A stretch of 40,116 nt of DNA from a virus: positions 1-40,116 of IMG/VR virus record IMGVR_UViG_3300030331_001975; one strand, 5' to 3'. How positions within the stretch are numbered: position 1 is the stretch's first letter; every line of letters begins with the position of its first letter. Made by a program: the position numbers and the translations under genes. The notes beneath the pieces are model-generated. The model made no database searches, was not told the origin of the DNA, and saw only the letters and a program-made list of their open reading frames with translations. Positions 1,205 to 33,380 of this stretch are shown here, piece after piece.

Positions 1205-2251
1205 ATGAAGATGTCAAAAGTAGCAAGCCACACTGAGTGGATCGTTAAGGCTAATCATACGCCCTGTCTGATAGGTGGAACAGGGATCGGTAAGTCAGCG
1301 ACAGTTAGACAGCTAGTTGATAAGTTAGCTGATGGTAGGAAAGTAGTAGATAGTATAAAGCCTAATGAGGATGAGTATGGGTTTATAGATTTCAGATTAC
1401 CGCTGTATGAGTCATTAGACCTTTCTGGACTGCCTTACATTAATGACAATGGACAACAGAAACGAGCCTTTCTGGGTAATCTTCCCACAGGTGGTGAAGG
1501 TCTGTTATTCCTTGATGAGGTCGCACAGGCTCATCCCAGTGTTGTATGCCTAGTGTCTCAGTTAATTAGTGATAAGCGACTAGGAGAGTATGTACTACCC
1601 AAGGGTTGGCGAGTGGTGCTAGCCTGTAACCGCGTATCGGATCGCGCATCCAGTAATCGACTGCCGACTCATTTAGTTGAGAGAGTACAGTTGATTGAGT
1701 GTGATGTCGTATTTGAAGATTGGGAGCGATGGGGTACTGAGAATAAAGTAAATCCTTATGTTATGGGTTATCTGTCATTTCAACCACAGGCTCTCAATAT
1801 CTTTGATGCTAAGTCTGATGGAGCGCAAGCTAACCCAAGATCATGGACTAGGCTGAGTGACATTCTAAAAACTGGACTGCCTAAAGATATGTGGAGAGAA
1901 ATGGCTGTGTCTTCAGTTGGCGAGTTACAAGCTACTGAGTTTGCTAACTTTATAATGCTTATGGATGACGTTCCTAATCTGTCAGACATTGTTAACGGTG
2001 TTGAAGCGCAAGTACCTACAAAGGGCGGTGTATGTTATGCCACCTGTATTGCTCTGATGGATAAGATAGAAACCGCATCCAATGAATTGATCCACAGATA
2101 TTTTGAAAATGCACTAGCATTTGTTAGTGGAATGGATACGCCAGAGTTCTCGATATTCTTTGTGCGTCAATGCGTGGCGAGAAGACCAGAGTTAAAAGAT
2201 TCGTCAGCCTACTCTGGATTCAAGATCAATAATCAGCACATCGAATATTGA
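1205..2251 (+). CDS. MoxR-type AAA+ ATPase
   Basis: This 348-residue protein has a Walker A motif (GGTGIGKS, residues 24-31), Walker B (LLFLDE, 100-105), a sensor-1 Asn in the ACNR segment (N142) and an Arg-finger-like Arg in LPTHLVER (R160). That layout fits the MoxR/RavA branch of AAA+ proteins, which act as chaperone-like motors with VWA-domain partners. The expected partner is two genes downstream (3238-4602). The start has GGAGG about 7 nt upstream. The likely role is ATP-driven remodelling of an unknown target together with the next two products. Family assignment is firm; the target is unknown. Confidence 0.87.
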   Translation: MKMSKVASHTEWIVKANHTPCLIGGTGIGKSATVRQLVDKLADGRKVVDSIKPNEDEYGFIDFRLPLYESLDLSGLPYINDNGQQKRAFLGNLPTGGEGLLFLDEVAQAHPSVVCLVSQLISDKRLGEYVLPKGWRVVLACNRVSDRASSNRLPTHLVERVQLIECDVVFEDWERWGTENKVNPYVMGYLSFQPQALNIFDAKSDGAQANPRSWTRLSDILKTGLPKDMWREMAVSSVGELQATEFANFIMLMDDVPNLSDIVNGVEAQVPTKGGVCYATCIALMDKIETASNELIHRYFENALAFVSGMDTPEFSIFFVRQCVARRPELKDSSAYSGFKINNQHIEY

Positions 2252-2253
2252 TT

Positions 2254-2270
2254 GGTCAATAATATTTTTT
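2254..2270 (+). repeat. Copy of dispersed GGTCAATAATATT-T-tract motif
   Basis: GGTCAATAATATTTTTT starts 2 bp after the stop of the MoxR gene and abuts the AGGAGG ribosome-binding site of the next gene. It resembles the motif copies at 4787-4806, 5191-5212, 12062-12080 (inverted) and 31397-31416. Function unknown. Confidence 0.45.
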
Positions 2271-2285
2271 AGGAGGAAAAAATAA

Positions 2286-3245
2286 ATGGAAAAATCTACA
2301 TTACATGAGACAGCAACACTGGTGAGATTCACCACTAAGTTTTGGAGTGGCATCAAATCTGATAAAGACCTACGTTCACAGTTGGCTGATGATGTGTCAG
2401 CACAATCTGACTTATTAAACGTGCAGAAATATCTGGTGGGTAAAGAGCACTCCAAATACTTTCGTAGGATTATCAACAAAGTAAGGAATGAGTTTTACTA
2501 TCCTAATACATTGCCTTGGAATGATAACTCCTCAGATGATGAAGGGATGGTAGTATCTGGGTGGAGGTTATGCCCTAACTCAAATCTGGACAATCTGATT
2601 GCTCAGATGAGCCAGTCTAAGCGAGACTTTGAAAAGGAGGTTGATGAGTTTCTTGAGTTTTATCCAGATAGGATTAAACAAGCCAAAGTATTATTAGGCG
2701 ATGCATTTGATCCTTTAGATTACCCAGATAGTGATTACATTAGAGAGAAGTTCCGTTTTGAATTTGAGACTAACATGATCCCTAATTACTCATCTGATAT
2801 CAGATTAAAGGTGTCAGCATCCGCAAGGGCAAAGATAGAGAGCGATGTAACCAACAGGATTCAATCTAACGCACTCTCAGCGAGTAAGGCGATCATTGAC
2901 TCACTAGTTGAACAAGTCTCTCACATCGCTGATAAGGTGGGTCAGTACGATCCTAAAGATAAACAAGGTGGATTCTTTAAGGATTCATCCTTTGAGAAAC
3001 TCAGACAGGCTATTTCTGTACTGCCTAATTTCAATAAAGATATACTTGGTGATATTTCATCGGTCAAAGATGCACATCAAAAATTAGTGGGCATCATGGC
3101 GAAGATAGATTCTGTCGATTCGCTCAGACAGGATAGCGATGAGTCAGCCAGTAAACGCGAGGAAGTCTCAACAGATTTGAAGAGTGCAATTGATCCTCTC
3201 AAAGGCGATTTCCTTGCTAAATTAGGAGGGTTAAAGAATGACTAA
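2286..3245 (+). CDS. Helical middle protein of the MoxR-VWA module
   Basis: A 319-residue protein with AGGAGG upstream of its ATG. The sequence looks mainly alpha-helical and charged, with heptad-like stretches toward the C-terminus, and has no transmembrane segment or catalytic motif I can name. It sits between the MoxR ATPase and the zincin-VWA gene and overlaps the latter by 8 nt, so the three are probably translated together. By position it may be an adaptor or substrate of the ATPase. No family is recognised. Confidence 0.75.
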   Translation: MEKSTLHETATLVRFTTKFWSGIKSDKDLRSQLADDVSAQSDLLNVQKYLVGKEHSKYFRRIINKVRNEFYYPNTLPWNDNSSDDEGMVVSGWRLCPNSNLDNLIAQMSQSKRDFEKEVDEFLEFYPDRIKQAKVLLGDAFDPLDYPDSDYIREKFRFEFETNMIPNYSSDIRLKVSASARAKIESDVTNRIQSNALSASKAIIDSLVEQVSHIADKVGQYDPKDKQGGFFKDSSFEKLRQAISVLPNFNKDILGDISSVKDAHQKLVGIMAKIDSVDSLRQDSDESASKREEVSTDLKSAIDPLKGDFLAKLGGLKND

Positions 3246-4602
3246 CCTTACCCCTAAAGAAATGGTAATAAAGGCGAGAACCGCCCTCATGCGCGATCAA
3301 GTTGGCATGGCATCAATACTCTTACCTTTAGAGATTGTCGAAGATGAGACTAAGCCGACTATGGCAACAGATGGTCGTAAGATTTATTACAATCCAGAAT
3401 TTGTGAAAGATTTATTATCCGAAGCGATACAGGGTGTTTTATTTCATGAGGGTTGTCACGTTATCTTTGAGCATCATTTAAGGATCGGTAAACGCAATCA
3501 TAAACTTTGGAATATCGCGTGTGACTATGTGATCAATATGTATATTCTAGATGTACTTGGAATGAAGTTGCCCGAAGGTGGATTGTATGACGCGCGATTT
3601 AAAGGTATGGGTGCTGAGAAAGTTTACTCCATCTTGGATGATGAGTTGGATCAAGATAAAGAACAGAATGATGAGAGCAACAGCGATCAATCTGGGAATG
3701 ACTCCGACTCTGATGACGGCACAGAAGATGAACAACAATCGACTGGTAAATATTCTTCTGAGGATGGCACACAGAACACTCCTCCGCCATCAAAGTATGA
3801 CAATCTTCCAGACTCGCAAGGCGAAATCATTATGCCTAAACATGACGATGGCAGAGAGTTTAATGGCGAGGAGTTAGAAGAAATGGCTAGCGCACTCAGA
3901 CAAGATGTCGTTATGGGCGAGAAGCTAGAGCGATCACATGGCAACGGTGAAGGGAATGCCTTAATAGGTGTTATGTCAGATATAGCTAGAAAATCTACCA
4001 TCAAATGGTCTGAGGTGATTGGCGATGATATGAAGTCAAATATAGCTGATGATTACACATGGTCTAAGCCTAATAGAAAGCATTCTTGGAGAGGTGTTCA
4101 CATGCCATCGCCCACGCATAGTGTTGATGGCGGTGTGTTAGCTATCGCTATGGATTCAAGTGTGTCAGTCAGTCAGAAGGAAGCTGACTACATGGCGAAA
4201 GAAACCAGAGTTATTGCTGAGGAATTAGGGCTAGACAAAGTAATGGTCTGTTACTGTGATCACATCGTTAGAAAAAATAGTGATGGTGAATGGTGGGATG
4301 TCTTTGATCTAAGCTGTGGCGATGAGATCGAGTTCAAGTTGCGCGGTGGTTATTACACAGAGTTTGATCCAGTCATGAATTTACTCAATGACTACACCGA
4401 TAATGCACATGAGATACAGGCACTAATCTATTTTACGGATGGTCATGGCGATGTGAATGCAGAATTGCAACCAGACTTGCCAGTCTATTGGGCGATTACT
4501 GATGAGCGATTCTTTACTGATGACTATTACATCAAGCGCATGGCAGAGAACTTACCTTTTGGTAAACACATCTACCTTGATGCTGAAGAAGCGTACCGAT
4601 GA
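3238..4602 (+). CDS. Metallopeptidase-like / VWA-domain protein (DUF2201-like)
   Basis: This 454-residue protein has two parts. The N-terminal part carries HEGCH (residues 70-74, the HExxH zincin pattern), a further His pair at 79-80, and WNIACDYVIN (91-100), as in DUF2201-type putative metallopeptidases. An acidic low-complexity linker covers about 134-170. The C-terminal part is a VWA-like domain with an intact metal-binding MIDAS motif: DSSVS (306-310), T374 in RGGYYTEFDP, and TDG (400-402). Such proteins pair with MoxR ATPases in bacteria. The SD (TTAGGAGGG) lies inside the preceding gene. Whether the zincin site is active is unknown. Confidence 0.85.
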   Translation: MTNLTPKEMVIKARTALMRDQVGMASILLPLEIVEDETKPTMATDGRKIYYNPEFVKDLLSEAIQGVLFHEGCHVIFEHHLRIGKRNHKLWNIACDYVINMYILDVLGMKLPEGGLYDARFKGMGAEKVYSILDDELDQDKEQNDESNSDQSGNDSDSDDGTEDEQQSTGKYSSEDGTQNTPPPSKYDNLPDSQGEIIMPKHDDGREFNGEELEEMASALRQDVVMGEKLERSHGNGEGNALIGVMSDIARKSTIKWSEVIGDDMKSNIADDYTWSKPNRKHSWRGVHMPSPTHSVDGGVLAIAMDSSVSVSQKEADYMAKETRVIAEELGLDKVMVCYCDHIVRKNSDGEWWDVFDLSCGDEIEFKLRGGYYTEFDPVMNLLNDYTDNAHEIQALIYFTDGHGDVNAELQPDLPVYWAITDERFFTDDYYIKRMAENLPFGKHIYLDAEEAYR

Positions 4603-4796
4603 GAGAGCAGAACTGGTGTGATCGATGCGAGGAGATCGTTGATAAAGATGACGATCTCTGGACAACGGGAGATGTGTACGGTGTTTTCGATAGCCGAGGT
4701 TATCGAGACACCTTTGACGATGGCTCGACTTTGGTATGTCAAGATTGCTTGGCAGACAAAGAATTCATTGAGGAAGGATTATTAACGGGTCAATAA
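4599..4796 (+). CDS. Small protein with two Cys pairs (possible zinc ribbon)
   Basis: A 65-residue acidic protein that overlaps the VWA gene stop by 4 nt (ATGA), implying coupled translation. It contains CDRC (residues 7-10) and CQDC (about 48-51), two CxxC pairs about 38 residues apart that could bind one zinc ion. The tight coupling suggests it belongs to the MoxR-VWA module. No named family is recognised. Confidence 0.7.
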   Translation: MREQNWCDRCEEIVDKDDDLWTTGDVYGVFDSRGYRDTFDDGSTLVCQDCLADKEFIEEGLLTGQ

Positions 4797-5430: not shown

Positions 5431-5724
5431 ATGTACGCAGTAATAAGACATACGTTTGTGCTTGATCTTAGAGATAAGTATAACTCTCAAGGTGAATGGC
5501 AACACAAGGTTTGGTTGTTTGATACTGAACGAAAAGCTATGGCTTATGCGATCACTTTATTGACTGACCCTGTGTTGATTGGCAATGAGCATTACTTAGC
5601 ACACGCATTAGAAAGATTGCAGACAGGTAAGTTTTGGCAGTTGGGAAATGAATCAGTTGCAGTTGGTAAGGTTGAAGACACCATACACATAGAGGAATAT
5701 GAGGATGAAAAATCTATACATTAG
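5431..5724 (+). CDS. Hypothetical protein, likely leaderless
   Basis: A 97-residue protein beginning MYAVIRHTFVLDLRDKYNSQ, mixed alpha/beta by eye, with an acidic C-terminus. No SD is present; TATAAT 6 nt before the ATG suggests a leaderless transcript. Its 3' end overlaps the start of the ribbon-helix-helix-like gene by 20 nt, so the pair is probably an operon. No family is recognised. A small partner upstream of a ribbon-helix-helix gene would suit an autoregulated pair, but toxin-like features are not evident. Confidence 0.65.
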   Translation: MYAVIRHTFVLDLRDKYNSQGEWQHKVWLFDTERKAMAYAITLLTDPVLIGNEHYLAHALERLQTGKFWQLGNESVAVGKVEDTIHIEEYEDEKSIH

Positions 5725-5971: not shown

Positions 5972-6428
5972 TATACCAGTAGTTTAGTAAAGTTTTAGCC
6001 GAGGTCTTCACCACTTGTATATCTATATCATCTAATTCTTTAGGTGAATCAACCATTATTCTCCAGAACTTTCTTTCTATTTGTTCTCCGCATTCTTTTT
6101 TTAATTCTCTTTGAACTTTGATGAGAACAATAGAACGAGGCGTAGAAGGAAAAGATTGACCAGTAAATATTTTATCAACAGCTCCTGCTGAGCTTTGCAA
6201 AAACGCACCGCTAGTTGCAATGAGACCTAGGTATTTATCACAAGCATTGTGTTCGCTTTCGTTTAGTTTGTTACTGAGATAAAGACTATCTATGATGTGC
6301 TGATCATACACTATTGCTCTAGCAATATTAGTATCTTCAACCTTTGAAATGCCTACCCTCTGCTTTGAATGAAGATAGGCATTACCTATTTCGTTTATCT
6401 TAAGTTTAGATTTCCCAATCAAAGTCAT
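5913..6428 (-). CDS. Hypothetical protein downstream of primase-helicase
   Basis: A 171-residue, probably helical, protein with no membrane segment or recognised motif. It starts inside the end of the primase-helicase gene (23-nt overlap), so it is translated from the same mRNA, and it ends inside the opposing regulator gene. Position suggests a replication accessory role, but no family is recognised. Codons 86-91 carry the 18-nt dispersed motif on the opposite strand. Confidence 0.75.
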   Translation of the reverse strand: MTLIGKSKLKINEIGNAYLHSKQRVGISKVEDTNIARAIVYDQHIIDSLYLSNKLNESEHNACDKYLGLIATSGAFLQSSAGAVDKIFTGQSFPSTPRSIVLIKVQRELKKECGEQIERKFWRIMVDSPKELDDIDIQVVKTSAKTLLNYWYISLGESPVVMFQQALEDRP

Positions 6429-8160
6429 CTTCTACTTTAGCTATCTCTCGATACCTTCCGTTAACTGGATTGAACTGCATCGTAACATTGCCAAGAGAAC
6501 CTTGCCAACCCCATCTTGCTTTCCAGTTATGAATCTGAACTCCATCATCTCCTCTGTAAACTGTAATCCCTGTGTCTGCTTTAGAAAACCATGCCATTGA
6601 TTTAGCTATGTCGACTCCTGTGCATACATTCTTTTTGCCATCCCTAATTTGTGGCTTGGTCGGATGACTTACAAAAAATACTAAGACATCATGTTGCTTT
6701 GCAAACAACTGAACTTTAGTAAGCATGTCAGATACCATGTCTGTTTCTAACGCATACTTAGTGTCAGTCTGAATAAAGTTAAACGGATCGATGACTAGAA
6801 TCCTTGCACCGACTCTCTGTACCGCATTCGCCCCCTTCTCCAAGATGCTTTCAATCGTAGGTATATCGCCATCCATATAGTCTTGAAACAAGATATGATC
6901 TTTAATCCATGACTCTGCATAGTCCTTTTCTTCTTGTGTCATTCGCGTGTTAACGCCTTTAAAGAAGGGTTTGCCTGTAAGTATTTGTGCTATCTGTACT
7001 GCATGAAGATGAGGTGGCTTTTCAAAACTACAGAAACAAGTCTTCCAACCATTGTTGCTAGCTACATTGACTATTAACTGGTCAATAAAAGCTGACTTGC
7101 CATCCCCGGGATATCCTGTTACGACAAATAAATTTCCTGTGCTAAGAGTAAACAGCTTATCCACAGAAGCAAAACCTGTTGAAACTCCAGTAGGCATACC
7201 TTTCTCGTACAGAGATTGGAAGTCCTCTGAGTAATGATCAATAGAGTTTAATCCATGTAATGGTATCGGCTCTGCATTAAGTATCGACTGCTTTAAATCA
7301 TACTTGCCTTTTGCTATTAGCAAATCATTAGCATCTTTCTCGCCTTGGAAATCCACACGATAGCACCTTGCTTTATTTAATCGTCTAGATAATTCGTCAG
7401 CTAACACATCACCAGACACATCATTATCTGTTGCCAGTATAATCTTTTCTACACCCTCAAACTTTTGCCTGTCTTCCCAAACGTATTTAAATCTACCGTC
7501 CTCTGATGCATCGACTTTATTGTTAGTAATCTTTGATGGCGCACCATTTGGTACAGAATAAACTTCTACGTTCATATAATCATGGAAGGCTGTCTTGATT
7601 GCTAAGGCATCTAACTCTCCTTCGGTAATTACAATGGTGTTTTCTAAATCGGGTAGCTTTCTATCTTTGACATTTGTGCCCCACAACCTAGTTGCATTGC
7701 CATCCCACCAGAATCTTTTATCTTCGGCATCTCTATATTTGATAGCTTCAATATCCCCTTCTGCTGTGCGGTAGACAAAACCTATGACTGGTTTATATTT
7801 ATTTGCACCTGATCCGCCAATCGCTGTGCCGTAAGACAAAGCTACCTCTGGACTTATCTTTCTGCTTTTAAGAAATAAAGCGCCAACGCTTCTCAAATCA
7901 TTGACAGGCTCATCTATTTTAGTGACAGGCTTTGGTGTTGGCTTGACTGCTCTTAGTCTTGTTTGAGTTTTCTTTGGCACGATTCCGTTCTCACCGCAGT
8001 GATGGCAGTTGTAAATAATCTTTTCGCTTTCTATATTGACTGATAAGGGTTTATCCCTTTTATGTTTTGATCGGGTATCTTGACAAAGTGGACAGGCGAT
8101 TTTGTGTTGTCCCAAGCTAAGGGAATAGGTAGACGACTCTACCGCTGTGTTGACATCCAT
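6406..8160 (-). CDS. DNA primase-helicase, T7 gp4/Twinkle type
   Basis: This 584-residue protein joins a primase and a hexameric RecA-fold helicase. A zinc-binding domain has CPLC (C23, C26) and CHHC (C52, C55). The TOPRIM primase core shows TEGELD (179-184) and ATDND (243-247). The helicase has Walker A GYPGDGKS (349-356) and Walker B ILVIDPF (454-460). It ends in an acidic tail with a terminal aromatic (DDFDWEI), like the T7 gp4 tail that contacts DNA polymerase. The SD is CGGAGA about 8 nt upstream. It should unwind DNA and prime lagging-strand synthesis at the fork. No DNA polymerase gene is in the window. Confidence 0.95.
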   Translation of the reverse strand: MDVNTAVESSTYSLSLGQHKIACPLCQDTRSKHKRDKPLSVNIESEKIIYNCHHCGENGIVPKKTQTRLRAVKPTPKPVTKIDEPVNDLRSVGALFLKSRKISPEVALSYGTAIGGSGANKYKPVIGFVYRTAEGDIEAIKYRDAEDKRFWWDGNATRLWGTNVKDRKLPDLENTIVITEGELDALAIKTAFHDYMNVEVYSVPNGAPSKITNNKVDASEDGRFKYVWEDRQKFEGVEKIILATDNDVSGDVLADELSRRLNKARCYRVDFQGEKDANDLLIAKGKYDLKQSILNAEPIPLHGLNSIDHYSEDFQSLYEKGMPTGVSTGFASVDKLFTLSTGNLFVVTGYPGDGKSAFIDQLIVNVASNNGWKTCFCSFEKPPHLHAVQIAQILTGKPFFKGVNTRMTQEEKDYAESWIKDHILFQDYMDGDIPTIESILEKGANAVQRVGARILVIDPFNFIQTDTKYALETDMVSDMLTKVQLFAKQHDVLVFFVSHPTKPQIRDGKKNVCTGVDIAKSMAWFSKADTGITVYRGDDGVQIHNWKARWGWQGSLGNVTMQFNPVNGRYREIAKVEDDFDWEI

Positions 8161-8847: not shown

Positions 8848-9137
8848 TGCATAAGATAGATAAGAATATACCATTTCCTAGCGACATGATTCTTCGCAAC
8901 ACAAAAGCTGAAAGATATCCTTGGAAACAAATGGATGTAGGAGATAGTGTTAAGATACCCATGAGGGAAAAAGAAGATGTTGATAAGTTCCGCAACAGGG
9001 TTTGTGCTAGCTATAGAAGATATGGCAATGAGCAGAATCCAATGAAAAGATTTACTTACAGATTTTTAAAAGACCCAGATGGTCGCATTGATGGTCTTAG
9101 AGTCTGGAGACTACACGACTACGATGTTCACGAATGA
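8847..9137 (+). CDS. DUF7303-like small protein, copy 2
   Basis: A 96-residue paralogue of the preceding protein: DKNIPFP, then YPWKQMDVGDSVKIPM, a basic middle (KRFTYRF) and terminal LRVWRL. The start at 8847 is chosen because GGAGG (8834-8838) lies 8 nt upstream and the ATG overlaps the previous stop (TAATG). The frame is open to an earlier ATG at 8832 that has no SD. Its end overlaps the nuclease start by 4 nt. Function unknown. Confidence 0.72.
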   Translation: MHKIDKNIPFPSDMILRNTKAERYPWKQMDVGDSVKIPMREKEDVDKFRNRVCASYRRYGNEQNPMKRFTYRFLKDPDGRIDGLRVWRLHDYDVHE

Positions 9138-10021
9138 AATATACTAACAAGCATGACATCCCTAAAGAGATTATTAGGGCAATAGAAAATGACCAGTACA
9201 CTAGGGGTAACTCTGACATAAGTGTAACTGGTTTATTGCAACCTCCTAGAATCAGATTGTTAGAGCGAAAACATCATGATGATATTGTTCTAGATTATTC
9301 AGATGAGACTTGGAAAATACTAGGTCAAGCTGTACATGCAATATTAGAAAGGGCAAATGAAAACTATGATGACACTATTACAGAGCAAAGATTGTTTGCA
9401 GACATAGAAGGATGGACTGTTAGTGGTCAGACAGATAGCTTGGCTGTGCATGATAAGATTCTTAAAGATTATAAAGTTACTTCAGTATGGACTGTGGTCA
9501 ACGCTTTGAAGGAAGGCAAGTCTGATTGGGAGAAACAGCTTAACTGTTATGCATATCTCTACAAGCACAACACTGGAGAAACCATTAACCAGTTAAATAT
9601 TATTGCGATAGCTCGCGACTGGAATCGAAGGGAGTTGCAGAGAAGAGGCGGTGATTATCCAAAGAGCAGTATCATTACTATTGATATACCGCTGTGGTCT
9701 GAGCAAGAACAGTTGCAGTTTTTTAAAGATAGAGTTTCTTTTCATAGGTCTTCTGAATTCAAACATAGTATGGATGGTGAGTTACCGCTATGTTCTGATG
9801 AAGACAGGTGGAAAAGAGAGGACACTTTTCGTGTGATAAAGAAGGGTAGGAAAAGAGCAATTAGAGTTTTACCTAGTCTGAAAGAAGCCGAAGAGTTTTT
9901 GGGGAGTAACGAAGATGGTTTATCTATAGAGATTTCTAAAGGTGAATCAATTAGATGCGGTGCATACTGCAATGTTGCTCAATTTTGTAACCAGTATAAA
10001 GAGGAGTTAGCGAATGGATGA
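9134..10021 (+). CDS. PD-(D/E)XK superfamily nuclease (Cas4/RecB-like exonuclease)
   Basis: This 295-residue protein shows GQAVHAILE (64-72, the His-containing helix of RecB-like nucleases), GQTD (98-101) and KDYKVTS (111-117), giving the D-x(n)-DxK catalytic arrangement (D101, D112, K114), then a Q-x3-Y helix (QLNCYAYL). The C-terminal region has PLCSDEDRW and RCGAYCNVAQFC, Cys spacing that could hold an iron-sulfur cluster as in Cas4/AddB nucleases. Next to an annealing protein it probably resects DNA ends for recombination. It overlaps both neighbours by a few bases. Cluster binding is inferred. Confidence 0.82.
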   Translation: MKYTNKHDIPKEIIRAIENDQYTRGNSDISVTGLLQPPRIRLLERKHHDDIVLDYSDETWKILGQAVHAILERANENYDDTITEQRLFADIEGWTVSGQTDSLAVHDKILKDYKVTSVWTVVNALKEGKSDWEKQLNCYAYLYKHNTGETINQLNIIAIARDWNRRELQRRGGDYPKSSIITIDIPLWSEQEQLQFFKDRVSFHRSSEFKHSMDGELPLCSDEDRWKREDTFRVIKKGRKRAIRVLPSLKEAEEFLGSNEDGLSIEISKGESIRCGAYCNVAQFCNQYKEELANG

Positions 10022-10751
10022 CAAAGCATTAGATGCACTTTTATCTAAACCTACTTATCAAACTATATGGAATACACTTAGTAAAGTAGATTGTAACGAT
10101 CATATTGAAAAGAAAATGAACCTAAGTTATTTATCTTGGGCATGGGCGTGGGGTGTTTTGATGGATCATTATCCCGATGCAGTAATTGATTTTTATCATG
10201 ATCCGCAAACAAATTTACCTTGTGTATTTTTTCCAGACAAGACTGCTGAAGTTAGATGCAGAGTTTCTATAGGTTCTGTAACCAGAGAAATGTGGTTGCC
10301 TGTTATGGACAACAGAAACAATGCCAAAGTTAATCCAAATTCTAGAGATGTTAGTGACGCCAAGATGCGATGCTTGGTAAAGACTCTAGCACTTTTTGGA
10401 TTAGGGCATTACATCTATGCGGGAGAGGATTTACCTCCAAGTGAAAAAGAAGAGAAGGTTGAAGAGAAAGTTGTCAAAGCTGAAAAGCCTAAGAAGCAAC
10501 CAGTAAAAGAAGAAACAAAGGACTGGACATCAGACCCTAAGAAATATGCTGACACATTTGTTACACCTATGTTAGCGTTGATTGATAAAGCTGAAGATGT
10601 TGTATCCTTAAAAGAGTTGTTTGTTAATAACAAAAGTCACTTCAAGGTTCTTGAGGAACAAGTGCCAGAAGAATACAAAAAGTTAATTGACAAATTTATG
10701 AAGAAAACAAATGCATTTGAAAAGGAGATTGGTGATGCAGATACAAAGTGA
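10014..10751 (+). CDS. DUF1071-type single-strand annealing protein (Sak-like)
   Basis: A 245-residue protein whose N-terminal 140 residues match the DUF1071 annealing-protein pattern: LSYLSWAWAWGVLMDHYPDA (43-62), a beta-rich middle ending in LPVMD, then DAKMRCLVKTLALFGLG and YIYAGEDLP. Phage proteins of this kind anneal complementary single strands. A Lys/Glu-rich linker follows (about 145-170), then a helical C-terminus. The upstream exonuclease and downstream SSB-like gene complete a typical phage recombination set. The start overlaps the nuclease stop by 8 nt. Confidence 0.87.
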   Translation: MDDKALDALLSKPTYQTIWNTLSKVDCNDHIEKKMNLSYLSWAWAWGVLMDHYPDAVIDFYHDPQTNLPCVFFPDKTAEVRCRVSIGSVTREMWLPVMDNRNNAKVNPNSRDVSDAKMRCLVKTLALFGLGHYIYAGEDLPPSEKEEKVEEKVVKAEKPKKQPVKEETKDWTSDPKKYADTFVTPMLALIDKAEDVVSLKELFVNNKSHFKVLEEQVPEEYKKLIDKFMKKTNAFEKEIGDADTK

Positions 10752-12102: not shown

Positions 12103-12444
12103 ATGAAAGCTAGCAGTGCGAAAGCAAAAGGGAGAAAGTTACAGCAATGGTTTACTAATTTGTTGATTGATAAACTTAATTTAGATAAAGAAGATTTAGA
12201 AAGTAGACCGATGGGCAGTCAAGGAGAGGATATTATACTTGGCAAACAGTCCAGAGATAAGTTTCCATATTCTATTGAATGCAAGAATCAAGAGGCGGTA
12301 AACATCTGGAAAGCCTATCAGCAAGCTGAAGATAACTGCAAAGGCTACGAGCCTTTGGTAATAATAAAAAGGAACAGAAGCAAAACTCTAGCAGTAGTAG
12401 AAGCGGAGCATTTTGTTTCTCTTATGGTGAACAAAGATGATTGA
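12103..12444 (+). CDS. PD-(D/E)XK endonuclease, possible resolvase
   Basis: A 113-residue protein with a basic N-terminus, then GSQGEDIIL (38-46) and SIECKN (57-62), giving the D43 / E59-x-K61 arrangement of a small PD-(D/E)XK nuclease, followed by WKAYQQAEDN and a PLVIIKRNRS strand. Small enzymes of this sort in phages may cut branched DNA, as Holliday-junction resolvases do. The SD is AGGGAG about 9 nt upstream. It overlaps the next gene by 8 nt. The nuclease fold is likely; the exact substrate is inferred. Confidence 0.78.
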   Translation: MKASSAKAKGRKLQQWFTNLLIDKLNLDKEDLESRPMGSQGEDIILGKQSRDKFPYSIECKNQEAVNIWKAYQQAEDNCKGYEPLVIIKRNRSKTLAVVEAEHFVSLMVNKDD

Positions 12445-12796
12445 ACTTTACGAAAAGAAACTAAACAAAAGAAAGCGAGATTGGTGGGAGTGGCACAAGA
12501 GTAATCCGCGTGTATGGCTTTTGTTTGAGCAGTACACATTTGAAGCGATCAATAGTGGCAGAAAGAATTACTCACATTGGGCTATCATTAATAGGATTAG
12601 ATGGAACGAAGAGATAGAAACAAAAGGTGGTGACTTTAAGATAAGCAACGACTACATATCTTTTTACGCAAGACTATTCCATGCAAGATATCCAGAACAT
12701 AATGGGTTCTTTAAGTTAAAGCTATTGAAAGAAGAAAAAGAAATAGAGTTTTTAGAGTCCAAGGGTTATGACAGGAACGTCAGATTGTTTTCTTAA
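12437..12796 (+). CDS. Conserved phage hypothetical protein
   Basis: A 119-residue basic protein. The segments WWEWHKSNPRVWLLFEQYTF, AIINRIRW, FKISNDYISFYARLF and a late GFFKL follow a pattern I remember from many phage hypothetical proteins near replication genes; its function is not known. Seven Trp residues are notable. It overlaps the upstream nuclease and, at its 3' end, the convergent giant gene by 45 nt, so rightward and leftward mRNAs meet here without a terminator between them. Confidence 0.75.
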   Translation: MIELYEKKLNKRKRDWWEWHKSNPRVWLLFEQYTFEAINSGRKNYSHWAIINRIRWNEEIETKGGDFKISNDYISFYARLFHARYPEHNGFFKLKLLKEEKEIEFLESKGYDRNVRLFS

Positions 12797-15700
12797 CTCT
12801 GGCACGAAAGCTAACCTCATGTCTCTAGACATTTCCATTTGCTCTAATATCTCTTCTTTTTGATCTGAAGATAAAGAGTTTGTATTTAATACAGCATCCC
12901 TTTGTTTTCGCCAGTGTCTCATGTATCTTTCAATCGCAAGTATTTGAGGTCTAGTTACAGCTAGCCCTCTGTGATTTTGCATGTATGCCATCAACTCATC
13001 TGTTCTTCCTTGCTTGCGTAAAGCGTTTACAGTCTGTTGGAACTTGTTACTCTCTGCTCTTAATTCATAGTATTGTTGCTGTAAGCCACCGCCCAAATCA
13101 GTTTGTAAAAATCTTTTAAAGACTGGCATTCTATCTATTCTTGGGCTGATAAAATCTCTGTCAGTAGTTTGTCTTAATATTGCATCAGTCATACCAAGGA
13201 CATAGCCACCGATTGTTCCTCCGTAACCTCTTAACACATACTCTATTTTTATTGGTGATATGTTAAAGGTTTCTCCGACAAGTCTTGCTAACTCATTAGT
13301 ATTATAATTAGCTTGATATCCCGGCTCCAAGCCAACTCTCTTGTAGTATGGAACTATCTCATTACCAGTGTAAGAACTTCTATTAATTATAGCTTCTGTC
13401 AATGGCTTGATTGCTTGGAATCCTAAAGGATCAATCTTCAAAGTAGTTTCTGCTTGCCGAAGTAAAGAATCAACTGTTTCATTTAAATCTCCACCCATCG
13501 CAACATCTATTATTCTTTCTGGAATAACCTTATACATAACTCCAACCTCAAAAGGTATAGGTATTTTTAAAGCGGGTATTCCTTCTGCATACGGAATTAT
13601 CCAGTTATCATCTCTAATTTCTCTTGTTGCTCCTTTGTATTCTTCTTCATCACTTACTAGAGCGTAATATAAACCAGTCAATAATGTTAATAATCCTCCC
13701 CTTGCCAAAGTGCCTAGAGCAACTCGCCTTGCAAAATCTTGTTGAGTTTCATCAGCCGCTTGCTTTGCCGCGGCCGAATACTTGCCGCTATGTGCTCTAT
13801 ACAAAACATCAAGACCTTGTATCCTAGCATTTAAAAATGGTATTGCCGCGGTTACAATCCTAAATATAGGACTAAGTCCTCTTCTGCTAAAGTTAATTAC
13901 TTCTAATGCTTGATAAGCCGCTTCAGCCTGACTTCCTGTCAAATCAAGTATCTTATCGTAGACTGCTTGTCTTGTTGCTCCGTCTGATTTAGTGGTCTGC
14001 TGTCCTAGCCAATCCCATATTCTTACAGCAGAATCTGTTAGAGATAGCGCACCATTTCTTCCTCTACCGGCTTTGTTCATTTCTTTTCTAATAAACTTAG
14101 CTACATCCTGTGGATCGTTGCTAAAATCATAACCTCCGATAATTCCAAACTTTTCTAGCTGAGTCATATCAGCATTAAAGTTTTTAAAGGTGTCTATGAT
14201 GGGAACCATATTTGCTCCCGAGGTTACGTAAGAAGAAAGACTATCTCGCAATAAGTTAGCTATCATAAATCCGGGATCACGAGTTACTAACTCTCTCAAA
14301 AATCCCGCGGGGTAAGCTAAAAATTTTGCGAGACCACCTATGTCATCTATTCCAACAGTCTGCAAACTATTGACCAACATAGGATCAGCCACATCAAAGA
14401 AAACCTTTTCGCCATCTATCATCACTGGCATGAGGTTGGCTCTGTTGCCTTCGTAAGTTTCGTCATCTATTCTTTGCGCTTGACCAGATAACTCGAGAGA
14501 CCTCATAAGCTTTTGCAGTCCATCATTTTTCATAGCCGCAGTAACAATAGCTAATTGATTTTTTGAAATAACAGTTAACGGATCAAGGTTTAAATCTTCT
14601 TTACTGCCTTTCATTTTTACTGATAGAGGATTAGAGGATAAGAATCCAGAAGCAATCTTGGGTCCGGCTACATTCTGATCTTCCATTTGTCTGTAGAAAG
14701 GATAATAATCAGAGTTCTCTCGCCATATTTTCGCTGTTCCTCTAGTTTCTATAACTTCATTAGCAGAAGCTGTTGAATTGTATGCTTGTATCAGACCTAG
14801 TATTTCTGCTCTTGTTTGCTCAGGTGTAAGACTTTCATCAACTCGATACTTACGCTTAGACTTTTTATTGAAGTCTCTTATCAATTGAGCATTCGTTCTG
14901 TCCTCTTGCAGTATTCCTCCTTCAACGGCAAAGTCTATTACACGATTATTGAACTGCTGAAACTTATCATATACCTGTTTGACTATTGGATAATCTGATG
15001 CTATCTCTGCGGCTTGTGCTATCGCATCTTCAGATACAGGAGTCTCGACTCCTTGTTCGTTAAGTCGTTTACCTCTGGTAGCAACTGCATATATTTTAAA
15101 TAAAGATTCTAAATCTACATTCGGGTCCTGATATAGTGGAGCAAATATTTCTATCAGTCCCCCATGCTCAAACTGTTCCACAGATGCCAAACCTTCTTTG
15201 AATGTAGGCACTCCTGCTTTGAGCATCATCGCATAAATGCCTTTCGCTCTATCAGAGTGCCTAAGAGCCTGTAATGCTCCAGTCTCTGCCATAAGATTAA
15301 GCTCTCTTGCTTCTGGACTTATTGCAGTGGCTCTCATAATTGCTTGCTCTGCTCTTGTTAACTTATCAACAAACGCTTCTCTTCCTCTAGTAAGCATTTC
15401 ATTGAGAGTGCCAAGGTTAGTGCTATCAACTAAAGTTCTACCGAATGATTTTGCAGGCATCTCTGGTCTGCCTATTTCATTTAAAGTCCCTTCATATTTG
15501 GGAGGAACTTTGGCATTGCTTCTATGAAATTTAGGAGGATCATTTATTATGCCCATGTCCTCTGGGGCATTTTGAAAATCAAATGCAATCTTAAGGGCAA
15601 CAGGATTTGCTTGATCGTTGTAGGTAGGTATGACTCCTCGAGATAAGGATTCATTTATTCTTATAACTTCTGCTTGCACCTCAGCAATATCAGCATCAGT

Positions 15701-18700
15701 AATATCTGCTTCGCCTGCAAGTGCTGAGTTTTCTTCTAAGTAAGGTGGTACTGTTTTAGGTTCAAATCCTACTTCTGCCGCGAATTGTCGGTAGCTTTCG
15801 TAGGCGGGGATGTAAAGATCACGGAGGGCGGCTCTTTGTATATCGGATGATTCGGTGAAACCAACTCTATCCCTAAGTCCTCTAATGCCTGATTTAGTTC
15901 CCGGTGTCCATCCTTGATCTTCTCCATATTCTATATACTCCGATTCTTGTCCATATCTTTTTAAAGTATAACCCTTACCCTGTATCCCTTCAAGGATAGT
16001 GCTAGCAAAGTCAGTCAAATCTTGCGCTGTATAAGGACCTTCAGAAAAAGACTTGGGGTCCATGAATGTTACACCTGTTTTATTATTAGCCATCAACGTA
16101 AAGTTAACTTGTTGTCCGGCTCTTTCCATGCCTTCAAATGTATTTGTAATATCTTGTAACTCTTGCACTGTAAATGCAGATTGATCCGGCTTTTCTAAAA
16201 TCAATCCAGTTTTTAATAAACCTTTTTCTACAGGTCTAGCTGTCACTGCCGCATCTTGCATAAACGCATCCGTAAATAACTGCGCTATTGACCTAACTAC
16301 AGCAGGCTCCGCCCCGGGAAGTTTCAATAATATATTTGGATTCAAGTATCCATCATAGGTTCCGGCAGACTCTGTAATTTCGTGAGGTATTTGCAGATTA
16401 TTTAAGAATTTAATTTTATTACCTGAAGAAATCTTCTTTAAAATTTGTCTTTGATAATTTAAGAAGCTTGCAAAAGGAACGGACTCGTCAATATTCTTTG
16501 GAAGATAACCTCTCTCTTTCCCCATTTTAAATTCTATGATTACTTCAGGAGCAGAATTTACAATAGCATCATACATATTTTGCTTTAAGTCTGTGTCAAA
16601 AATATTTGATTGTGTTTTACTTTTGTAATTAGGATTGTGAATAAATTTACCAGAGAAGGGTCTGTCAATTGCAAAATCTCCCTGATCTATCATTTCTTTT
16701 ATTGCAGATATTTCTTCTGAAGAGTGTCTTACAGAGGACTCATACGTTCCTTCATTATAAATCTTAGTAGGACCATCATATCTTTGATGAGCCCACAGCA
16801 AAGCTTGCACTTGTCTAGGTGTAAATGTTCTTACTTCACCATCAATGTTGTAATTTTCAGTGGCTAACAATCCGATAATAGCTTGCATAACCCTGTATTC
16901 GTTCTCATTAATGCCACCGCCTGTGCCATTATCCATGCCAAACTTTCTAATCATATGCCTATCAATTACAGAGAATGGACTAAACCTGTTGTTAGATGAG
17001 TCTAATACTTCTAGGGCATAAGTAGCTGTTTTCTGGCCCGTTTCTTGTTTTTTATACAAGCCTGTTTCATAAATTTTTGCGATGTCATTTAGTCTTTGAT
17101 TGTTCTTATTAGCTACGTTAAACTTTTTAAGTTCCTTTATAAATTTATCCTTGTCATTGACAGGGTCTATTTGTCTGGCAACTATCATTGTTCTTAACGT
17201 ATCTTTTAAATTAGGTTCTGGCTTTGCTTGTGCAGAGGTAACGCCAAAGATAGATGAAAACTCATTCATGTTAACATCTCCAACTATTGTTGGTATTCCA
17301 TTACCCCATCTCTCATACCACAGATAATCCATATTTTTCTTTACTGCATCTCGTAAATCTGCTTTTAACTGAGAGTAATCTACAAAATCATGTCGCTTTG
17401 CCTTTGTAGGAGAGAATGCACCGAGCGCGGCTCTAAAGTTTTCTGCTTTAGGATTGCCATTAGTATTTTTATATTCATTGTAAACAGCTTCTTCTGTCGC
17501 ACCGGGGAATAAAATATTACTAGGCGTAATACCTGCCCGCGAAAACTTAGGTGTACTATTTATTTGATCGGTCAATAATCTTATTTCTTCTTCAGCTTGC
17601 CTTAACTTGTTAAGTTCTCTTTGGTAGCTAGCCCTAGACATCGAGCCACCTTCCTGTCTAATGGTGCTCTCAGCTACCATCATTCTTTGTGTTGCCCTTT
17701 GCAATCTGTCCTCTGCATCTTCTCTGGTCTGAGAAAACTTAGGTGGTGATACAAATTGATTTCTTTCTTTGGCTCTATCTAATGCTTGCAAGCTTCTTAT
17801 TTTATTTCTTTCTCTTCTGCCTATCTTACCCAGACGAATGTCTTCCATGACAGCTATCGGTGAACTAAATCCAGAACCAAATATGCTGTCAAAAAAACCT
17901 TTTATTAAGTCTATGATTTTTCTAATAGTTTTCTTTGACTCGCCCTTAAATTTGCTAGGGTCTTTTCTGTAGTATCTAAATAGTTCAGCAACATATTCTT
18001 CTTCGAGAGCGATGATGTTGCCAGTTTCTCTGAGACTAGCATAATTTATATCTATCATTTCAAGAGCAGTCTTTGGCTTGTCACCTTTCTTGGCATCTTT
18101 TGGTTGATTGTCTGCTTCGATAGTCGGTAAATATTGTTTTGCAAAATTTAAAAGACGTTGATACTCGCCCTCAGTAATTAAATCTAAATCTCTTATGGCA
18201 TGGATAGCTTCATGATCTATAGTAGCTGAGATGGCAGACTCTAGCTCTGCATCAGACTTACTGCCATCAGGATCAAACTTTGTCATTGATACGAGTATTC
18301 TTCTAAAAGCATCATCATATTCTGCTTCTACATCACTTGCTCTTCCAGTTAGAACAGGTCTACCATCTATAAATTCCATGCCTTGAGATGACCTAATCGC
18401 TGTTTCAAATTTAAGACCTACATCTGACAAGCCTAACTGATTCATTTTTTCTCTAATATTTTTTCGTAACGTATCATACTTTTTCATAGTATTTGGAGGA
18501 GCAAGCAACAACACCTCCTCTTGCGTTACTACATCTGCACCTTGAGATTCTTGATTGCTAACAACCTCATCTATTTGTTCTTCTTGCAAAGGCGTTAAAT
18601 CTTGCAGTCTTTGTCTAAATTGATCAGTAGTTTCATTTAAAGGCTGTGCTTTTCTAGCCTGTCTAACCTCAAAGTCTGTAGTCATTACCAGTTTGTTTTT

Positions 18701-32117: not shown

Positions 32118-32537
32118 TTATAAATCTAAATTAATTTTTTTCTCATCAATAAGTTTTTGTCTATTAGCCATATGTTCTGATTCAAGTTCTTCTTTACTCT
32201 GCCCGAAATATTCTACTGCCAAATGATTATCTATCATTGACTGATTAATATTTATTTTATCAGCAAACAATCTTCCTAGCACTCTGCCAAATTTTCCTTT
32301 TGCATCTTTTTCTGTTTGAATAACTAATTGTTTTGCAGATGTAATTTTATTGATTAGATACTCTTTAGCTAACAATCCTCGTATCTTCTCGTCTTCATCT
32401 CTTGTTCTAGACTCTGGAGTATCTATGCCGTAAAGACGTACCTTACTGTTAAACATAATGCCAAAGCCTAAATCTATTGAGCAATCTAAACTATCGCCAT
32501 CGATTACTCTATTTACTTTACATTTGTATTCGTACAT
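32118..32537 (-). CDS. Staphylococcal-nuclease-family (SNase) nuclease
   Basis: A 139-residue protein with the thermonuclease-family catalytic set: VIDGDSL (D13, D15), VRLYGIDTPES (R34, D39, E42) and KGKFGRVLGRLF (R85), matching Asp19/21, Arg35, Asp40, Glu43 and Arg87 of staphylococcal nuclease. There is no signal peptide. It probably cleaves DNA or RNA in a calcium-dependent way, perhaps host DNA or virion-associated. The ATG overlaps the previous stop (TAATG). Confidence 0.88.
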   Translation of the reverse strand: MYEYKCKVNRVIDGDSLDCSIDLGFGIMFNSKVRLYGIDTPESRTRDEDEKIRGLLAKEYLINKITSAKQLVIQTEKDAKGKFGRVLGRLFADKININQSMIDNHLAVEYFGQSKEELESEHMANRQKLIDEKKINLDL

Positions 32538-32785
32538 TAGGTAACCTTTCTGTATTTTCTTACTTTTTTTGCAACGCTCTTAGGCTGTTTAACGAATTGT
32601 TTTCCTGCTTTTGTTCCTTTTCTTTTAGCTCTAGTAGTTGCCGCATACTCTTGTGGCGATAAAGCTTTGATAGCTTTTTCTGGCAAATATCTCTCTCCAG
32701 TCTCGCTAGACTTTTTGCCTGACTTTGTTCTCCACTTTTGCTTTGTCCAAGACTTAAGACTTCTCTGTGACTTCTTCAACGGCAT
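32537..32785 (-). CDS. Small basic DUF5872-like protein
   Basis: An 82-residue, very basic protein starting at ATG 32785 (the frame extends to a TTG at 32797). SQRSLKSWTKQKWRTKSGKK, TGERYLPEKAIKALSP and EYAATTRAKRKGTKAGKQF match a pattern I remember as DUF5872. The C-terminus is Lys-rich. There is no SD; the gene starts inside the end of the methyltransferase gene, so coupled translation is likely. A DNA-binding or virion role would suit the charge but is unproven. Confidence 0.75.
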   Translation of the reverse strand: MPLKKSQRSLKSWTKQKWRTKSGKKSSETGERYLPEKAIKALSPQEYAATTRAKRKGTKAGKQFVKQPKSVAKKVRKYRKVT

Positions 32786-33380
32786 GATCAAATCCAAATA
32801 CGGTAATGTAAGCGTCTGTCTTCCTAGGCTCTTCTATGTATTTTCTTTCTAGAAAATGTGGAACCTGACAATAATCTACTAGCTCCCAAAAGCTTTGCCT
32901 TCCGGGATCGCACATTATCAATTGTTTATTATGAAACGCTAGTTTATCTATTAGCTCTATCCAACAATCCACTTGATTTTTCCAAAAGCAAACATCGCAA
33001 GCAATGTAAACATCGAAGTCCATTGGCAGAGTATCATCAAAAATATCTTGCTGTACAAACTTAGGATTAGAATCCATAAGCTTACAAATTAAATCAAAAT
33101 AAGGCTTAACTGTTTCGTCTTGATCGAATCCAGTTACTATCCCGCCTTTCTTTTGCAGATAACAACTCATTGCTCCCCATCCGCAACCTAAGTCAGCAAA
33201 TGTTTTACCTTTAACATTTACCTCATCAAAAGCATCTAAGAAAACTAAAGTAGAGTTCCAAACCTTATTGCCATGCATAGAATGTACGTTATAGTGTTTC
33301 TTTAACTTTTTTATTTCAGGATGAGAAGACATAGGTATTTCTATACCTTTTATTTTCACATTAGTTTTTGTAGCCACCAC
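32754..33380 (-). CDS. Class I SAM-dependent methyltransferase
   Basis: A 208-residue protein with the SAM-binding motif FADLGCGWGAMSCYL (motif I, DLGCGWG at 63-69), then GFDQDE (acidic end of strand 2), DIFDD and an FDVYIACDVCFW region in the position of motif IV. An N-terminal GNKVWNSTLVFLDAF segment resembles the lead-in of METTL/protein-lysine-type methyltransferases, so a protein substrate is possible. The start is a GTG at 33380, overlapping the previous gene by 20 nt; ATG at residue 17 is an alternative. Substrate unknown. Confidence 0.8.
   Translation of the reverse strand: MVATKTNVKIKGIEIPMSSHPEIKKLKKHYNVHSMHGNKVWNSTLVFLDAFDEVNVKGKTFADLGCGWGAMSCYLQKKGGIVTGFDQDETVKPYFDLICKLMDSNPKFVQQDIFDDTLPMDFDVYIACDVCFWKNQVDCWIELIDKLAFHNKQLIMCDPGRQSFWELVDYCQVPHFLERKYIEEPRKTDAYITVFGFDHAVEEVTEKS

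Follow-up and report, generated by a model that had tools for sequence, protein, structure and literature searches.

A conserved phage gene triad of MoxR-type ATPase, DUF3150-like protein and zincin-VWA protein as a probable remodelling unit also carried by conjugative plasmids

Pairs of an AAA+ ATPase and a VWA protein have already been described in phages. For the pair of a MoxR AAA+ ATPase and a metallopeptidase-vWA protein in jumbo phages, regarded as a chaperone pair, a role in virion assembly has been proposed (Iyer et al., 2021, PMC7824862), gp24/gp25 of an N4-like phage comprise an AAA ATPase adjoining a vWFA protein (PMC2784036), and a phage MoxR protein from S-CREM1 has been assigned to CGN (PMC9964418). 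Here we analysed a stretch of 40,116 nucleotides from a marine phage (IMG/VR record IMGVR_UViG_3300030331_001975), hereafter the window, in which three neighbouring genes on the same strand form one tight cluster and encode a MoxR-type AAA+ ATPase, a helical middle protein and a zincin + VWA protein. As in the jumbo-phage pair, MoxR adjoins a vWA protein whose N-terminal part is a metallopeptidase domain, but the accessible part of that account mentions no DUF3150-like third gene, and the window phage is smaller (PMC7824862). The N4-like phage resembles the window in its ATPase and vWFA neighbours (PMC2784036) and differs in that no DUF3150-like gene occurs at the N4-like locus examined (L016). 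The literature searched gave no mention of the triad itself.

The triad lies within the window's non-structural (replication/recombination) region, with the structural genes on the opposite strand (Table 1). The first-pass annotation of this DNA described the genes as packed with overlaps, which is true of the middle/VWA junction (8 nt) and the VWA/Cys-pair junction (4 nt), whereas the MoxR and middle genes are separated by a 34-nt gap. Strong Shine-Dalgarno sequences are located upstream of the MoxR, middle and VWA genes, and the catalytic motifs of the triad proteins are all intact.

Table 1. Triad genes and selected neighbours in the window, with the basis of each assignment.
Feature	Position	Strand	Details
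MoxR-type AAA+ ATPase, AAA_5 (CbbQ/GvpN/NorQ-midasin side)	1205..2251	+	348 aa; phrog_1297, PF07728, motifs, PDB match
Middle protein, DUF3150-like	2286..3245	+	319 aa; profile, fold, gene neighbourhood
Zincin-like (HEGCH) DUF2201_N + acidic linker + DUF2201 VWA with MIDAS	3238..4602	+	454 aa; PF13203, PF09967
Small Cys-pair protein, two CxxC, ATGA-coupled to VWA	4599..4796	+	65 aa; lineage-specific
Twinkle-like primase/helicase (context), convergent with triad	6406..8160	-	phrog_239 6.4e-73
Exonuclease (context)	9134..10021	+	phrog_2139 2e-50
Sak-type single-strand annealing protein (context)	10014..10751	+	PF06378 1.7e-41; phrog_659 1.5e-44
RusA-like Holliday junction resolvase (context)	12103..12444	+	phrog_244 5.6e-19

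The ATPase carries Walker A (GGTGIGKS), Walker B (LLFLDE), sensor-1 N142 and the arginines R160 and R212. R160 is present in 83 of 85 non-redundant relatives, none of which departs from K30, N142 or R212. Its best PHROG is phrog_1297 (1.9e-65) and its best PDB match is midasin. With complete motifs and a match to Pfam AAA_5 (PF07728) above the cut-off (23.3 bits against 22), the protein is assigned by sequence to the MoxR AAA+ ATPases, on the AAA_5/CGN side, and the intact MoxR-type ATPase first annotated here is thereby borne out. CbbQ_C (PF08406), the marker of CGN proper (CbbQ/NirQ/NorQ), is not among its Pfam matches, unlike the IncC and SXT-like ATPases, in which this domain is found.

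The annotated union of a HEGCH metallopeptidase-like domain with a VWA domain of complete MIDAS likewise holds. Of 96 non-redundant relatives, 94-96 retain the HEGCH (H70/E71/H74) and MIDAS residues (D306-S308-S310, T374, D401), and about 94 have the HExxH of the putative metallopeptidase domain. Both DUF2201_N (PF13203; 116.9 bits against a cut-off of 23.2, E 1.6e-33) and the DUF2201 VWA model (PF09967; 31.3 bits against 26.4, E 2.5e-7) match above their cut-offs, which together with these motifs places the predicted protein in both families. The label 'HNH endonuclease' that phrog_1314 attaches to it is probably a mislabel and was rejected, given that Pfam returns DUF2201_N/VWA.

The middle protein had been taken for a protein of no recognised family, a view that profiles, fold and synteny do not support. 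Its own score against Pfam DUF3150 (PF11348) is 21.1 bits (E 2.2e-4), below the curated cut-off of 24.9 bits; DUF3150 is matched by 26 of its 45 relatives (best E 5.4e-9), and a profile-profile comparison of the middle family with DUF3150 (hhalign) reached 97.1% and E 5e-11 over 150 columns. The predicted model, an N-terminal alpha/beta part followed by a C-terminal helical bundle, aligns with DUF3150 phage proteins at a TM of about 0.75, and a BFVD match to a DUF3150 protein scored 0.76/0.82. Sub-threshold HMM scores, profile-profile similarity, predicted fold and gene order thus point to a distant relative of DUF3150. A Foldseek search of the PDB returned nothing at E<=0.001, and the PDB matches were generic helical bundles confined to residues 166-319 (Z about 10); common bundles would score likewise, and therefore we draw no inference from them and claim no new fold. 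Our searches found no paper on DUF3150, nor on CobS/CobT/SXT together with DUF3150.

Linkage supports the view that this protein belongs to the cassette. All 107 other loci whose flanks were sufficient (67 of them non-redundant), the only loci taken into this count, have the middle gene near both the MoxR and the VWA gene, in the order MoxR-middle-VWA at 101, middle-MoxR-VWA at four and MoxR-VWA-middle at two. The middle and VWA genes are once fused in frame (L077, 780 aa), with a spacer between them in the sister contig (L075). Presence of the middle gene also tracks the VWA tree (12 changes as against 32 in shuffles). Another observation would suit an ordinary MoxR-VWA pair in which the middle gene has no joint function and travels as a passenger through common operon descent: 45 of the 96 non-redundant VWA genes, about half, have no detectable middle gene and nearly always have MoxR (for example in an N4-like phage, phage G, S-TIM5 and CRP-7), and hhalign of the neighbouring proteins at such loci revealed no hidden DUF3150 relatives. 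The third component is therefore not obligatory in the wider MoxR-VWA family. Nevertheless, linkage to both partners throughout, three gene orders and the fusion make the passenger explanation highly improbable, and this comparative sequence evidence makes the middle protein a true third member of the cassette. The AF2 model of the natural fusion was poor (pLDDT 60.8, pTM 0.30) and gave no middle-VWA interface, and two broader alignments of the fusion (A5, A7) proved misaligned and were rejected.

The small protein with two CxxC pairs is present after the VWA gene and coupled to it, as first described. No homologue was found in the phage collection, and across that collection and the related loci the gene occurs elsewhere only in one contig, 100% identical; the conserved unit is therefore three genes, and the four-gene cassette was rejected. 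Of the earlier proposals of a conserved four-gene order and of two new components, what stands is the MoxR/middle/VWA order and the middle protein. Absence of the middle and Cys-pair genes from relatives keeping MoxR and VWA had been named beforehand as evidence against the cassette; within its lineage the middle gene withstands this, but the Cys-pair gene does not.

The triad is not restricted to phages. It occurs in Cupriavidus/Ralstonia genome contigs and on Burkholderiales conjugative plasmids, where it adjoins T4SS genes and not Red genes. A genome scan with profile A1 gave no bacterial relatives, and profile A8 matched only the centre genome among 398 Pseudomonadota. DUF3150 has homologues in 1,152 plasmid records, IncC resistance plasmids among them; 969 of these records are typed as conjugative. 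The bona fide DUF3150 genes of IncC plasmids and of an SXT-like element have genes for a CbbQ-type ATPase and a CobT/VWA protein in their vicinity. In one arrangement DUF3150 stands between the CbbQ-type AAA_5 ATPase and the CobT/VWA protein with HExxH, preceded by YqaJ exonuclease and RecT, and one IncC plasmid shows the series AAA_5/CbbQ_C - hypothetical - ssb - bet - exo - DUF3150 - VWA. This plasmid set beside recombination genes is a probable distant counterpart of the phage triad, and such recurrence of a middle-type gene around a diverged CbbQ/CobT-type pair is a further argument against a passenger.

In the window, the exonuclease, Sak annealase and RusA genes are located 4.5-8 kb downstream of the triad. 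Phage MinM2 has the same plan, including the primase/helicase arrangement, with an ERF-type annealase and its exonuclease 4-8 kb from the triad. Sak annealase is found in 16 of 28 records with the middle gene and in 1 of 11 without, most Sak-positive records belonging to one phage group. Proximity of annealase and exonuclease genes is common in phage early regions.

These distributions bear on function. Maturation of structural proteins by a virion-assembly chaperone/protease, proposed in print for jumbo phages (PMC7824862), has an analogy in Acidianus two-tailed virus, in which the VWA protein p892 and virion proteins are binding partners of p618 (PMC4124505). However, the jumbo-phage pair differs from the triad in that the latter is also found on conjugative plasmids, which make no virions and which therefore speak against a purely virion role, and the window triad belongs to the non-structural arm, its genes running on the other strand from the structural ones; we regard this role as distinctly unlikely. 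That the triad recurs on plasmids as well as in phages speaks against virion assembly, the only published proposal found, as a general function and points toward DNA handling by the element.

Many phages and a number of plasmids inherit the three genes together, and resistance plasmids have a probable distant counterpart; the genes therefore probably encode one protein-remodelling machine. We contend that the triad is very probably a co-functioning unit and, with good but lesser confidence, an AAA+/VWA remodeller; that its client is linked to DNA recombination is put forward tentatively, with more doubt than conviction. A single three-subunit remodelling machine of mobile elements seems to us an evenly balanced proposition. 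Such a machine would act early, perhaps on nucleoprotein complexes. Linkage shows that its three components are inherited together; by analogy with MoxR-VWA biology, the AAA+ ring would spend ATP to remodel a client, while the VWA domain, via its MIDAS metal, would grip the client or dock onto the ring. The DUF3150-like protein, with bundled C-terminal helices that would suit protein binding, may link zincin-VWA to the ring or to the client, and the zincin domain, given its strict HExxH conservation, may cut or bind the client. As the weakest step, gene neighbourhoods suggest that the clients could be the element's own DNA replication/recombination proteins or their blockers and not virion proteins. 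It can be speculated, although we think it unlikely, that an AAA+ ring with DUF3150 and zincin-VWA proteins is general to mobile elements, partnered with the element's annealase/exonuclease in phages, ICEs and IncC plasmids, and strips or proteolyses DNA-bound proteins (e.g., roadblocks, crosslinked proteins) during replication-recombination. The MoxR-VWA-type remodelling set originally suggested is accordingly kept as a conserved three-gene cassette, probably a remodeller, and given up in its four-component version.

Carriage by phages and conjugative plasmids would also suit host takeover or counter-defence, with the ring remodelling or degrading a protein of the host or a defence complex in the early phase of infection or once a plasmid has entered; the triad's position among small unknown genes and the scattered gain and loss (12 changes on the VWA tree) are in keeping with this. 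We consider it possible yet rather doubtful: the window's four proteins had no PADLOC match, in models that cover defence rather than anti-defence, the nearest isolate found, DSL-LC04, lacks the module by annotation, and all three proteins are strongly conserved, unlike many anti-defence genes. Cofactor or metal insertion into a phage or host metalloenzyme, comparable to CobS-CobT cobaltochelatase or CbbQ-CbbO/NorQ-NorD, is suggested by the AAA_5 ATPase, by the CbbQ_C- and CobT-like neighbours of DUF3150 and by a Cys-pair protein that could bind metal. With no CobN-like or metalloenzyme gene adjoining the triads examined, and the Cys-pair protein unconserved, this explanation is very unlikely. 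If the triad is one remodelling machine, DUF3150, a family without a function, gains a setting and partners.

Among known systems, the IncC/SXT-like sets (L209, L215, L216) share with the triad an AAA_5 ATPase, DUF3150, HExxH + VWA and nearby recombination genes; no function for their genes was found in the SXT/IncC literature searched. Their proteins are strongly diverged, the plasmid VWA partner is CobT-type whereas that of the window is DUF2201, and the IncC ATPase is separated by ssb-bet-exo. VMAP ternary systems also combine MoxR, vWA and a third protein (Kaur et al., 2020, PMC7159879). What sets the third protein of the window apart is its resemblance to DUF3150, including a predicted fold that clearly matches DUF3150 proteins, and no fused effector domains like those reported for VMAP systems (PMC7159879) are seen in the triad; Pfam and PADLOC, libraries that may contain no VMAP model, reported no VMAP-C in the window proteins. 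RavA-ViaA of E. coli similarly pairs a MoxR-type AAA+ protein with a VWA partner gene, but the window ATPase is on the AAA_5/CGN side, with no Pfam match to the RavA C-terminal/LARA domain at E<=1, and the triad has in addition a metallopeptidase domain and a third subunit.

In the virus record of 40,116 bases, ORF calling recovered the four reading frames of the first-pass annotation (see table), with clear Shine-Dalgarno sequences upstream of the MoxR, middle and VWA genes. The description of these genes as packed with overlaps holds for the second and third junctions (-8 and -4 nt) and not for MoxR/middle, where a gap of 34 nt is found.

Coordinates of the features in the window and in two related loci
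Location	Strand	Feature
1205-2251	+	MoxR-type AAA+ ATPase
2286-3245	+	DUF3150-like middle protein
3238-4602	+	zincin-VWA protein
4599-4796	+	Cys-pair protein, 65 aa, two CxxC pairs; start in ATGA overlap with VWA gene
5431-5724	+	97-aa ORF, kept downstream of the triad in L005-L007, L009 and L010; intervening genes not kept
12752-20842	-	2,696-aa virion/polyvalent-like protein containing a zincin-like motif, HEAIH; very long for a record of 40 kb
32118-32537	-	139 aa; on reading resembles staphylococcal-nuclease-type nuclease
32754-33380	-	putative methyltransferase, 208 aa, motif DLGCGWGAMS
34656-40094	-	1,812 aa, read as fibre-like with many repeats; C-terminal SSDERLKENI... resembles S74-type chaperone domain on reading
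L209:2637-3407 (SXT-like)		256 aa, between ATPase and DUF3150; WGR-like by eye; no Pfam match
L216:2639-3544 (IncC plasmid)		301 aa, hypothetical, after ATPase

The ATPase exceeds the Pfam AAA_5 cut-off and matches phrog_1297 (1.9e-65); its closest solved structure is a midasin AAA module, which ranks above CbbQ and RavA. The VWA protein has the Pfam architecture DUF2201_N + DUF2201. HExxH and every MIDAS position show almost no variation across 96 non-redundant relatives, whether or not the middle gene accompanies them, which indicates at sequence level that selection keeps both sites. In PHROG the protein falls in phrog_1314, which carries the label HNH endonuclease, probably a mislabel of this DUF2201 zincin-VWA protein, and the name has been copied into many deposited phage genomes.

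The middle protein had been assigned to no recognised family, a view superseded by its relationship to DUF3150. Alone it gives a weak Pfam match, while 26 of 45 relatives match DUF3150, and tblastn links it (1e-10) to a gene of Synechococcus phage MinM2 that bears the annotation DUF3150. Profile-profile comparison gave 97% against bona fide DUF3150 and 100% over 293 columns against the plasmid/MinM2-type set. The AF2 model (pLDDT 87.6, pTM 0.76) has an N-terminal alpha/beta part followed by a C-terminal helical bundle and aligns with DUF3150 proteins of phages (TM about 0.75); structure comparison recognised no solved fold for it.

The profile searches yielded 73 viral loci in which the middle gene occurs, and many loci were retrieved via the VWA gene. 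MoxR and VWA are both present in all 107 middle-gene loci with enough flanking DNA (67 non-redundant), some retrieved through the VWA gene, for which only the MoxR linkage is independent. Of the proposed conserved four-gene order, the MoxR/middle/VWA part thus stands, in three gene orders; the Cys-pair protein was seen among relatives only in one identical contig and drops out as a conserved component. A single metagenomic contig, which contains some ambiguous positions downstream, encodes the middle and VWA proteins as an in-frame fusion (780 aa) through a deletion of ~120 nt relative to a sister contig; this is supportive, not decisive. The middle gene clusters on the VWA tree (12 changes vs 32 in shuffles), many deep branches of which are weakly supported. 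It is lacking from 45 of the 96 non-redundant VWA loci; nearly all of these 45 keep MoxR, and they include loci of an N4-like phage, phage G, S-TIM5 and CRP-7. Records OQ594354, OL906435 and PP438419 (claimed hosts Synechococcus, Planktothrix, Planktothricoides), all 65,014 bp with identical scores, are probably three deposits of a single phage.

Plasmids of Burkholderia, Paraburkholderia, Cupriavidus, Robbsia, Simplicispira and Rhodovastum also carry the triad, mostly in adjacent MoxR-DUF3150-VWA order, as do most Cupriavidus/Ralstonia genome contigs retrieved, and DUF3150 homologues occur in 1,152 plasmid records. Among 398 Pseudomonadota genomes, bona fide DUF3150 was found in 8, DUF2201_N in 12, and our A8 search profile matched the centre genome only, a sparse occurrence as expected of mobile elements.

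Virion assembly has been proposed for the two-gene phage version, MoxR and metallopeptidase-VWA (PMC7824862); as a general role of the triad it is unlikely, because triads also occur on plasmids. We prefer replication/recombination proteins, or proteins blocking them, as clients, with counter-defence the main rival. Genes for an exonuclease (phrog_2139), a Sak annealase and a RusA resolvase follow the triad in the window at a distance of 4.5-8 kb and on its strand, separated from it by a convergent twinkle helicase gene; MinM2 has the same plan, but with an ERF annealase and about 25% protein identity. Sak occurs in 16/28 middle-gene-bearing records vs 1/11 without, and the exonuclease family is less selective. 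Since a single phage group accounts for most Sak-positive records, and the plasmid triads of Burkholderiales adjoin T4SS genes instead, this association is a lead, not proof.

By analogy with RavA-ViaA, ATV p618-p892 (PMC4124505), midasin and CbbQ-CbbO, the ATPase would form a ring powered by ATP, served by an adaptor that carries the MIDAS; co-inheritance points to the DUF3150-like protein as a third subunit, and the zincin domain is predicted to add client cleavage or metal binding. Most regions retrieved around bona fide DUF3150 contain a Walker-A ATPase, an HExxH + DxSxS protein, or both; in the regions scanned these are AAA_5 + CbbQ_C and a VWA protein with CobT-type matches. In L209 and L215, YqaJ exonuclease and RecT genes lie upstream of the ATPase/DUF3150/VWA genes, and L215 is probably an SXT/R391-like element, as its RecT N-terminus (MEKPKLIQ) fits the primer sequence that PMC3118119 gives for SXT bet. 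The IncC plasmid has the order AAA_5/CbbQ_C, hypothetical, ssb, bet, lambda exonuclease, DUF3150, VWA. No three-part module common to phages and plasmids, and having this CbbQ/CobT-type counterpart near Red-like genes, was found in the open-access literature searched; already known are the two-gene MoxR-VWA pair, DUF3150 as a name, and the database labels on DUF3150 and VWA genes.
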